Positions 60,246 to 64,000 of a stretch of DNA of 64,000 nucleotides are shown one piece after another. The DNA lies in the NCBI RefSeq assembly GCF_020832045.1, contig NZ_JAFIFK010000027.1:27914-91913 (forward strand), read 5' to 3'. Within the stretch, counting starts at the first letter, position 1. Every line of letters begins with the position of its first letter. This DNA comes from Halomonas sp. (lineage in GTDB: Bacteria; Pseudomonadota; Gammaproteobacteria; Pseudomonadales; Halomonadaceae). The notes under the pieces were generated by a model that ran no database searches, was not told the DNA's origin, and saw only the letters and a list, made by a program, of their open reading frames with translations. The translations under genes and the position numbers were made by a program.

Positions 60246-61274
60246 ATGAAAGCACTGATCAAGAAGGAGGCATCACCCGGCCTCTGGCTGGATGAGGTGC
60301 CTGACCCACAGGTCGGCATCAACGACGTGCTGATCAAGGTGAAACGCACTGCCATTTGCGGCACCGACGTGCATATCTACAAGTGGGACAGCTGGGCCCA
60401 GAAGACCATCCCGGTGCCCATGGTCGTTGGTCATGAGTTCGTCGGTGAGATCGTCGAAGTGGGCTCCAACGTCAATGACTTCCATCCGGGCCAGATCGTC
60501 TCCGGCGAGGGTCACGTGGTGTGCGGCCGCTGCAGGAACTGCCTGGCCGGACGCCGCCACCTGTGCGCCCATACCAGCGGCGTGGGGGTCAACCGGCCGG
60601 GCGCCTTCGCCGAGTATGTTGCCCTGCCCATGTCCAACGTGTGGGAGCACAAGCCGGGCATCGATCTCGACGTTGCCGCCATTTTCGATCCGCTGGGCAA
60701 TGCCGTGCACACCGCGTTGCAGTTCGACCTGCTCGGCGAGGACGTACTGATTACCGGCGCCGGGCCGATCGGTGCCATGGCCGCCGCCGTGTGCCGCCAC
60801 GCCGGCGCACGCCACGTGGTGGTAACGGATCTCAACCCGGGTCGCCTGGAGCTGGCCAAGCGTCTGGGCGCAACGCGTACCGTAGACGTACGTCACGAGA
60901 CGCTACCCGAGGTTCAGCGCGAGCTGGGGCTGACCGAAGGCTTCGACGTGGGCCTGGAGATGTCCGGCAGCCCCGCTGCCTTCCGCGACATGCTGGCCAA
61001 CATGTGCCACGGCGGCAAGGTTTCGATGCTCGGCATCCCCACCGAGGAGATCGCCATCGACTGGAACACGGTGATCTTCAACATGCTGACGCTGAAGGGA
61101 ATCTATGGCCGTGAGATGTACGAGACCTGGTACAAGATGTCGGTGATGATCGAATCCGGTCTCGACATCTCGCCGGTCATTACCCATCGCCTGCCCTACA
61201 CCGAATTCCAGCAGGGTTTCGATGCCATGCTGAGCGGTGAAGCGAGCAAGGTCGTTCTCAACTGGGAGTCATGA
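60246..61274 (+). CDS. tdh: L-threonine 3-dehydrogenase
   Basis: A 342-residue zinc MDR enzyme. '[40 protein letters not shown]' contains the catalytic Cys/His/Glu zinc site. '[19 protein letters not shown]' is the four-Cys structural zinc site. '[29 protein letters not shown]' binds NAD. It oxidises L-threonine to 2-amino-3-ketobutyrate. kbl begins one base after its stop, giving the standard threonine-to-glycine operon. Confidence 0.96.
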
Positions 61275-61275
61275 C

Positions 61276-62466
61276 ATGTACGGAGCCTTCAAAGAGCATC
61301 TGAGCGGCGAGCTGGACGCCATTCGTCAGGCGGGGCTGTACAAACACGAGCGACAGTTGACTACGCCCCAGGGTGCGCACGTCGGAATAAGCGCCGGCCA
61401 GGAGGTGCTCAACCTGTGCGCCAACAACTACCTGGGGCTGGCCCAGCACCCCGAGGTCAATGCGGCAGCGAAGGAAGGCCTGGAAGAGTGGGGCTTCGGC
61501 TTGGCCTCGGTGCGCTTCATCTGCGGCACCCAGAGTTTGCACAAGCAGCTCGAGCAGCGCCTGACCGACTTTCTCGGCACGGAGGATACTATCCTCTACC
61601 CCTCGTGCTTCGACGCCAACGGTGGACTGTTCGAGACCCTCCTTGGCGCCGAGGATGCAGTAATCTCCGACGAGCTCAATCATGCCAGCATCATCGACGG
61701 TGTGCGGCTCTGCAAGGCGCGGCGTTATCGATATCGCAACAACGACATGGCCGATCTCGAGGAGCAGCTGAAAGCCGCCGACCGCGATGGTGCGCGCTTC
61801 AAGCTGATCACTACCGACGGTGTGTTCTCCATGGACGGCTACATCGCCCGGCTCGACGAGATCTGTAACCTGGCCGAGCGCTATGACGCCCTGGTGCACT
61901 TCGACGACTGCCATGCCACTGGTTTTCTCGGCGAGGGCGGCCGCGGTACCCATGAGTATCGCAACTGCATGGATCGTATCGACATCACCACCGGCACACT
62001 GGGCAAGGCGCTGGGCGGCGCCAGTGGCGGCTACACTAGTGGCAAGCGCGAAGTCATAGAGCTGCTGCGCCAGCGCTCTCGGCCCTATCTGTTCTCCAAC
62101 ACCGTGGCACCGCCGGTGGTTGCCGGCGCGCTGAAGGCCATCGAGATTGCCGCCGAGTCCCGCGAGCTGCGCGACCGGTTAAAGGAGAACACAGCCTTCT
62201 TCCGCGAAGGGCTCGAGCGACTCGGCTTCGAGCTGCTGCCAGGCGAGCACCCCATCGTGCCGGTGATGCTGCACGACGCGGGGCTTGCCGCCCGCTTCGC
62301 CGATGAAATGCTCAAGGAGGGCATCTACGTGATCGCCTTCTCCTACCCGGTGGTACCCCAGGGCAAGGCGCGCATTCGTACCCAGATGTCCGCCGCCCTG
62401 AGCCGCGACGACCTGGAGTTCGCTCTTGCTGCCTTTGGAAGGGTCAAAGAGCGTTTGGAATTGTAG
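61276..62466 (+). CDS. kbl: Glycine C-acetyltransferase (2-amino-3-ketobutyrate CoA ligase)
   Basis: A 396-residue PLP enzyme of the alpha-oxoamine synthase family. '[15 protein letters not shown]', '[21 protein letters not shown]', the PLP-Asp region '[13 protein letters not shown]' and PLP-Lys '[15 protein letters not shown]' are diagnostic. It splits 2-amino-3-ketobutyrate with CoA to glycine and acetyl-CoA. ATG 61276 lies one base after the tdh stop; the longer track start at 61237 is inside tdh. Confidence 0.96.
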
Positions 62467-62496
62467 CTTATCGGATAAAGATCCTACCGAGCTGCG

Positions 62497-62550
62497 GGCA
62501 AGAACTTGCCCAACGGGCAACTTATTGCCCGCTTCAGGCAACGGATTGCC
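62497..62550 (+). promoter_or_regulatory. Three tandem GGCAA-N4-TTGCC dyads, probable enhancer-binding-protein sites
   Basis: The dyad GGCAA-N4-TTGCC occurs three times (62497-62510, 62516-62529, 62537-62550) with spacers GAAC, CTTA and CGGA. Start-to-start distances are 19 and 21 bp, near two helical turns, so the sites face the same side of DNA. The flanks of each add one to two more paired bases. They lie between kbl and vgrG, upstream of a sigma-54-like promoter. The tandem array, not a single terminator stem, argues for an operator or enhancer. Confidence 0.7.
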
Positions 62551-62617
62551 TGAATTTACTTAGCCTCTTCAACTCGCCGCATAGTTACTCCTTGTTTTTA
62601 CTTAATTAGCTTAAAGC

Positions 62618-62633
62618 TGGCACAGCGCCTGCT
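62618..62633 (+). promoter_or_regulatory. Sigma-54 (RpoN) type -24/-12 promoter for vgrG
   Basis: TGGCACAGCGCCTGCT matches TGGCAC-N5-TTGCW in all conserved positions except one (C for the first T of TTGC). The invariant GG (62619-62620) and GC (62631-62632) are 10 bases apart, as required. The likely start point near 62643 gives a short leader before the AGGAGGGAGC ribosome site of vgrG. Confidence 0.72.
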
Positions 62634-62666
62634 GTAACTCGGCCATGTACGTCTCCAGGAGGGAGC

Positions 62667-64000
62667 ATGGCCTCAGAAACCGGACTTCACTTCACCCTGA
62701 CCATCGCTGATATCGAGGACCTGGCGGTCACCGAGTTCACCCATCGGGAACGGCTCTCCGCCCCCTTCGAGCTCTCGGTGCGTTTCGCCAGCCGCGACGG
62801 CAGCCTCTCCGCCCGCGACATCCTCGACCGCGAGGCCACCCTGACGATCTGGCAGCAGGGCGAGGCGCTGCGTCGCGTTCACGGCATCGTCAGCGAGTTC
62901 GGTCGCGGCGACCGCGGCCACCGCCACACCTTCTATCGCGTCGAGATTCGCCCCGCGCTGTGGCGTCTGGGTCTGCGCCAGAACTCGCGCATCTTCCAGG
63001 ACGTCTCGCCGCTCACTGTGCTCAACACCCTGTGCGACGAGCACGGCCTGACTGACATCGCCTTCGCCGTCACCCGCGAGCCCGAACCGCGGGAGTACTG
63101 CGTGCAGTACCGCGAGAACGATCTCGCCTTCGTCGAACGCCTGGCCGCCGAAGAGGGCCTGTTCTACTTCCATGAGTTCGCTGAGACCCCGAATAGCGGC
63201 CACCGCCTGGTATTCGCCGACGCCCCCCAGGTCCTGCCTCACCTGGGCGAGCGCACCTACCACGGCCGTGCCGGCGGCACCCCGTCCAGCCGCCACGTTC
63301 GCAGGTTGCAGCAGCACACCCGTATCGCCCCGGCATCTGCCACGCTCAAGGACTACTCGTTCAAGAAGCCGGCTTATGGCCAGCTGCACGATCATCTCGC
63401 CGGTGACCTCGAGGGCCATGGCCAGCGGACCGACTATGAGCACTACGACTACCCGGGCCGCTATAAGGCCGATGCCTCGGGCCAGGCCTTCACCCGCATT
63501 CGCCTCGAAGCCCTGCGCCGCAGCGCCAACACCGCCGACGCCGAGAGCGACCTGCCCGAACTCGCCCCGGGTACCCGTTTCACCCTGACCGACCACGACC
63601 TTGATGACCTCAACCGTGACTGGCAGGTGCTCGGCGTGGTCCACCACGGCCGTCAACCCCAGGCCCTGGAAGAGGACGGCTTCGTTCAGGTAAGTGAACA
63701 AGCCGATCAACGTGATGGCCTGCAGGGTCGGGCAGGCTCAGAAGCCATGACCCACTACCACAACGAACTGGTGCTGATGCCTGCCGACCAGGCCTGGCGT
63801 CCCGAGCCCGACCCCAAGCCCCGAGTCGACGGCCCCCAGATTGCCTTTGTGGTTGGCCCCGAGGGCGAAGAGATCTACTGCGACGAGTTCGGCCGGGTGA
63901 AGGTCCAGTTCCCCTGGGATCGCTACGCTGAGCCCAACGAAACGGCGAGCGCCTGGCTCAGAGTCAGCCAGGACTGGGCCGGCGGCGGCTACGGCAGCAT
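62667..64000 (+). CDS. vgrG: VgrG type VI secretion spike protein (partial, runs off the window)
   Basis: At least 444 residues with no stop before the window end, which is why the ORF track lacks it. The start MASETGLHFTLTIADIEDLAVTEFTHRERLSAPFELSVRF and 'EYCVQYRENDLAFVERLAAEEGLFYFHEF' are the gp27/gp44-like part of VgrG. 'IAFVVGPEGEEIYCDEFGRVKVQFPWDRY' is the gp5-like OB-fold entry. 'WLRVSQDWAGGGYGSM' continues at the edge. AGGAGGGAGC precedes ATG 62667. It is preceded by three dyads and a sigma-54-like promoter. Any C-terminal effector extension is out of view. Confidence 0.95.
   Translation, partial: MASETGLHFTLTIADIEDLAVTEFTHRERLSAPFELSVRFASRDGSLSARDILDREATLTIWQQGEALRRVHGIVSEFGRGDRGHRHTFYRVEIRPALWRLGLRQNSRIFQDVSPLTVLNTLCDEHGLTDIAFAVTREPEPREYCVQYRENDLAFVERLAAEEGLFYFHEFAETPNSGHRLVFADAPQVLPHLGERTYHGRAGGTPSSRHVRRLQQHTRIAPASATLKDYSFKKPAYGQLHDHLAGDLEGHGQRTDYEHYDYPGRYKADASGQAFTRIRLEALRRSANTADAESDLPELAPGTRFTLTDHDLDDLNRDWQVLGVVHHGRQPQALEEDGFVQVSEQADQRDGLQGRAGSEAMTHYHNELVLMPADQAWRPEPDPKPRVDGPQIAFVVGPEGEEIYCDEFGRVKVQFPWDRYAEPNETASAWLRVSQDWAGGGYGS

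Follow-up and report, generated by a model that had tools for sequence, protein, structure and literature searches.

Sequence elements upstream of vgrG

The window, by which we mean the whole 64-kb stretch of DNA analyzed, carries the 5' part of a vgrG gene preceded by three inverted repeats (dyads), a putative IHF-like site and a predicted sigma-54 promoter. These features, together with the neighboring gene upstream, are as follows:

61273..62466, + strand: kbl-like gene with an aminotransferase class I/II domain; upstream and outside the regulated unit
62497..62510: dyad 1, GGCAAGAACTTGCC, centered at about -140; exact match, position conserved at 44 promoters
62516..62529: dyad 2, GGCAACTTATTGCC, centered at about -121; exact match, position conserved at 44 promoters
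62537..62550: dyad 3, GGCAACGGATTGCC, centered at about -100; exact match, position conserved at 44 promoters
62585..62597, + strand: putative IHF-like site, TTACTCCTTGTTT; 7 of 9 consensus positions, 20 bp before the -24 box
62618..62633, + strand: predicted -24/-12 sigma-54 promoter, TGGCACAGCGCCTGCT; consensus match
62657..62663, + strand: Shine-Dalgarno-like AGGAGGG, read from the sequence
62667..63998, + strand: vgrG (tssI), 5' part; the gene is interrupted by the contig end and its 3' part is missing

The initial annotation had named the downstream gene as vgrG, and this identity was borne out by a match to TIGR03361 far above the cut-off (432.6 bits against 186), with the start codon at 62667. 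A pattern scan of the window located exact GGCAA-N4-TTGCC sites at 62497, 62516 and 62537 and nowhere else, with start-to-start spacings of 19 and then 21 bp, as had been described. Only 0.06 such sites are expected by chance per window, and none of 100 dinucleotide shuffles reached three; scored as a unit, the vgrG triple reached 30 out of 30, and the best triple of the same geometry in 20 locally shuffled windows reached 24. Together, these two shuffling controls rule out a chance origin of the dyads.

The promoter match (TGGCAC-N5-CTGCT) was likewise found where it had first been reported, beginning exactly 67 bp after the third dyad. It contains the GG-N10-GC core (GG at 62619-62620, GC at 62631-62632) and departs from the consensus TGGCAC-N5-TTGCW at a single position, with C for T before TGC. 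From its position we predict a vgrG start site at about 62644 (62643 in the initial annotation), and the dyad operators would then fit the usual range of enhancers, which have at least two dyads and typically lie some 80-150 bp upstream.

Three further arrays precede T6SS genes in the same genome

It had been proposed that the genome be scanned for the motif near other -24/-12 promoters, and in the 4.08-Mb draft assembly we found it beside such promoters of two hcp genes and one PAAR gene. The assembly contains 17 exact GGCAA-N4-TTGCC sites, compared to four for the reversed control pattern. Seven of these 17 fall in three clusters, one being the vgrG array of the window. The two others are terminal on contigs C33 and C34, where each stands directly 5' of an hcp gene interrupted by the contig end; both are triples with one degenerate dyad, and they stand 67-68 bp before aGGCACgctttcTGCT or gGGCACgcttacTGCc.

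We also considered the dyad as a general genomic repeat and rejected this reading: nine of the ten single exact sites lack a good sigma-54 promoter where the conserved distance would place one. Eight of these ten sites are inside long open frames, and the tenth led to a fourth array on contig C102 (L061, 114300-116800, minus strand), of which it is the third member. This array lies 66 bp before GGGCATGGTTTCTGCT, and it is followed by an hcp-like remnant and by an open frame in which a PAAR motif is combined with a phage-lysozyme domain; the product of this frame is likely an antibacterial T6SS effector. All four arrays have spacings of 19 and then 21 bp, score 28-30 out of 30, lie 66-68 bp from a -24/-12 match and stand before T6SS genes (vgrG, two hcp genes and the PAAR-lysozyme gene).

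A VasH-type activator is encoded in the core T6SS cluster

There are 12 full sigma-54 activators in the genome. A VasH-like gene, for which a search had been suggested, is present in the T6SS cluster on contig C22 (C22:17360-18961, 533 residues), the contig that also carries TssC; it lies between the genes for ClpV and VasI (TIGR03360), which are followed by those for TssA and TssM. The protein has an AAA+ domain (PF00158), an HTH domain (PF02954) and a GAFSGA loop, a feature reported for VasH of Vibrio (PMC5371669). The recognition region of the protein, AESLGLPKRTLAHKC, recurs almost unchanged in VasH of Photobacterium, Salinivibrio and two Vibrio; it is unlike the HTH of the other 11 activators of the genome.

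Control of the core cluster itself by VasH was considered and rejected: we found no dyads and no -24/-12 match on contig C22, and the core cluster thus seems to be driven otherwise. This arrangement fits the model proposed for Vibrio, in which expression starts with the core cluster, the source of VasH, and the auxiliary clusters are then switched on by VasH (PMC10482370).

The geometry of the arrays is conserved in the genus

We found hcp in 25 of 61 genomes of the genus, and in all 25 the hcp promoters are accompanied by the array; strict dyad pairs were found in none of the 36 genomes that lack hcp. Each of the 31 hcp promoters examined in the genus has three dyads, those of the weakest scoring 8, 8 and 10 out of 10. 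Across a set of 44 distinct promoters of hcp and vgrG, taken from the genus as well as named Halomonadaceae and related by descent so that the counts are not independent, the spacing between dyads 1 and 2 is 19 bp (37 promoters) or 20 bp (7), that between dyads 2 and 3 is 21 bp (36) or 22 bp (8), and the distance from the array to the -24 box is 65-68 bp in all but one (43 out of 44). When 22 promoters were aligned gap-free, the information content was 1.8-1.9 bits per position in the dyad arms and 1.8 in the promoter, against 0.5-0.6 in the linker, and the median pairwise identity outside the motifs was 41%. Because the linker DNA has diverged to this extent, the constant geometry does not merely reflect recent common descent. 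This conservation through the genus supports the earlier reading of the vgrG region as having the geometry of activation by an enhancer-binding protein.

The stretch between the dyads and the promoter had been described as AT-rich and suited to DNA bending. It is AT-rich, but a more fitting description is that of an IHF-like site whose position is fixed: using the consensus YAANNNNTTGATW, with nine positions scored, we found that 33 of the 44 promoters have their best match exactly 20 bp before the -24 box, and four have it 19 bp before. The match is weak at vgrG (7/9) and reaches 8/9 at both hcp genes of the genome.

The array also occurs largely together with the activator. All 21 genomes of the genus that encode VasH have hcp and the array, including one (G032) in which the VasH orthologue is split into two frames (C1:144129-145729; L251 and L252) and hcp, TssC and two arrays are kept. 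Four congeners (G019, G044, G051 and G053; L345-L348) have orphan hcp islands, with an intact or nearly intact array and with neither VasH nor TssC in the genome. These islands look like relics, yet the arrays in two of the four are little decayed; the arrays may be left over from a T6SS since lost, or another activator may use them. In a further congener, an orphan dyad pair lies about 240 bp after kbl (L098, 2042-2074) and no vgrG was found there; it is possibly the relic of a lost vgrG locus.

Named relatives with such arrays belong, among the matches listed, to the Halomonadaceae. In a genome of the same order (G222), an hcp promoter has variant dyads, GCGCAA-N4-TTGCGC, at a similar distance (L316), which suggests that the outer operator bases may have drifted in this lineage. 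In a class-wide search, hcp genes at a greater distance (below about 50% identity) for the most part had no array. A pattern scan of the whole collection, which is no census, returned Bacteroides and sphingomonad sites mixed in among the matches listed. GGCAA-N4-TTGCC pairs or double pairs occur in several Bacteroidales genomes, with no T6SS match among the matches listed; Bacteroides and Prevotellaceae loci with such pairs include L104, L107, L111, L155, L158 and L166.

Comparison with T6SS control in Vibrionaceae and Pseudomonas

The hcp promoters of Photobacterium, Salinivibrio and two Vibrio have three GCAA-N4-TTGC dyads 5' of a -24/-12 match, at a dyad-to-promoter distance of 41-71 bp, and those of both Vibrio have full-score IHF sites. 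The plasmid hcp of Aeromonas caviae has two such dyads and no triple, and in Rahnella, compared by its hcp promoter alone, we found none. As in V. cholerae, V. fluvialis and V. fischeri, the hcp genes here have predicted sigma-54 promoters with a putative IHF site 5' of them, and a VasH-type activator with a GAFSGA loop is encoded in the core T6SS cluster (PMC5963220, PMC5371669, PMC9972734). Vibrio hcp promoters need both VasH and IHF (PMC5963220, PMC10482370); in V. fluvialis, VasH is required and mutation of the IHF site, which lies 16 bp before the -24 element, lowers promoter activity sixfold (PMC5963220). The Halomonas system differs in several respects: the operator is mostly GGCAA-N4-TTGCC, the array lies 65-68 bp from the promoter rather than the 41-71 bp of the four Vibrionaceae, the IHF-like site is 20 bp before the -24 box rather than 16 bp as in V. 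fluvialis, and vgrG and the PAAR-lysozyme gene have predicted enhancers of their own.

The arrangement also resembles the H2-T6SS of Pseudomonas aeruginosa (RpoN/Sfa2), in which a cluster-encoded activator links the core cluster to scattered hcp and vgrG islands (PMC8855297). In P. aeruginosa, however, the sole clear Sfa2 site reported is 2132 bp from the RpoN site, and no dyad array has been described (PMC8855297). No VasH operator is named in the literature on VasH that we found in a limited search, and an earlier description is possible.

Alternative explanations for the dyads

The dyad core is not private to VasH. In other bacteria, CGGCAA-N4-TTGCCG pairs stand near the -24/-12 sigma-54 promoters of flgB and flagellin, and this core is similar to that of the FlbD ftr and FlrC/FleR flagellar sites (we take the ftr element of FlbD to be a sequence of the CGGCAA-N4-TTGCCG type). 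At ten loci (L106, L117, L120, L122, L123, L153, L165, L168, L172 and L207), we observed such pairs about 54-86 bp 5' of a near-perfect -24/-12 match; the downstream frame at most of them looks like flgB, and the pairs resemble FlbD-type enhancers. At two Marinospirillum loci (L139 and L146), the same dyad pair is placed after a sigma-54-like promoter and ahead of the start codon of flagellin, in the manner of a downstream enhancer. Contig C35, considered for comparison as a flagellar cluster, was rejected on reading. The suggestion that the binding motif may be new is qualified by the occurrence of its core at flagellar sigma-54 promoters elsewhere.

It could be argued from these sites that the arrays form a sigma-54 enhancer bound mainly by another activator, for example of the FlrC, FleR or FlbD type, which would place vgrG and hcp in a flagellar or some other regulon; the four congeners that retain hcp and the array without VasH would agree with this. 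We consider it unlikely. Within the genus the arrays are confined to hcp-bearing genomes and are found in every genome that encodes VasH, and VasH is the only activator of the genome whose HTH is shared with the Vibrionaceae that have related arrays. Moreover, the outer base pair of the dyad is G/C or A/T in the T6SS arrays and C/G at the flagellar sites, the T6SS arrays are triples whereas the flagellar sites are pairs, and the distance to the promoter is fixed in the former, while the latter vary in distance (about 54-86 bp) or sit downstream.

A second explanation, raised in the initial annotation, is that the dyads act only as the intrinsic terminator of kbl, with no role in vgrG expression. 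The dyads do lie directly 3' of kbl, their region folds well as RNA (z -5.5), and dyad 3 would form a 9-pair hairpin followed by TTTACTT, with a terminator-like score. This score is limited to dyad 3, however; a T run is missing from dyads 1 and 2, and the distance from the dyads to the -24 box is constant. The same arrays also precede hcp genes that have unrelated genes as neighbors, as well as vgrG genes with no kbl in the stretch or with kbl at a distance of 5.7 kb. Because the arrays occur away from kbl and go with hcp, vgrG and PAAR genes instead, the terminator reading fails as a general explanation. We regard it as very improbable for vgrG and as largely excluded as a general role; a side role as terminator is possible. 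Least credible of all is that the promoter is an inactive relic and that vgrG is transcribed by read-through from kbl, its close upstream neighbor with the same orientation, or from a sigma-70 promoter that escaped detection, given that we found no sigma-70-type promoter at 62300-62800, that the vgrG dyads are perfect (30/30) and that the vgrG promoters of congeners have the same geometry with no adjacent kbl.

Proposed mechanism and implications

From the observed sites, their geometry, the genes that they precede, their conservation and their largely shared occurrence with the activator, we consider it highly probable that the triple dyad serves as a sigma-54 enhancer for the VasH of this genome, acting with IHF to control Hcp, VgrG and PAAR cargo. 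VasH binding, IHF binding, RpoN dependence and the start site are what we infer from this anatomy, its conservation and the known Vibrio system. We propose that VasH dimers would occupy the three dyads (GGCAA-N4-TTGCC), which are separated by about two helical turns, and form an active ring. IHF would bend the linker of about 67 bp at a fixed point, and VasH would then contact RNA polymerase with sigma-54 at the -24/-12 promoter, so that vgrG is transcribed. That the spacing hardly varies although the linkers have diverged suggests a tightly built complex of activator, IHF and polymerase. The same module would drive the two hcp genes and the PAAR-lysozyme gene, and expression of tube, tip and cargo would thereby be coupled to that of the core cluster.

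Vibrio already provides the precedent for the sigma-54/VasH/IHF mechanism; what is provisionally new, as far as our limited literature search shows, is the operator with its rigid geometry. With a defined site sequence and spacing, the VasH regulon becomes readable from genomes, as exemplified by the weaker array that led to the PAAR-lysozyme gene. More tentatively, we speculate that a triple GCAA-N4-TTGC array with IHF and -24/-12 sites at set distances might be a general, previously undefined VasH enhancer of Halomonadaceae and Vibrionaceae, although we hold this broader claim to be somewhat doubtful. If it is true, T6SS cargo genes could be found from DNA alone, and, because VasH and flagellar sites differ mainly in the outer pair, a preference for one base pair may be what separates the sigma-54 regulon of the T6SS from that of the flagellum.
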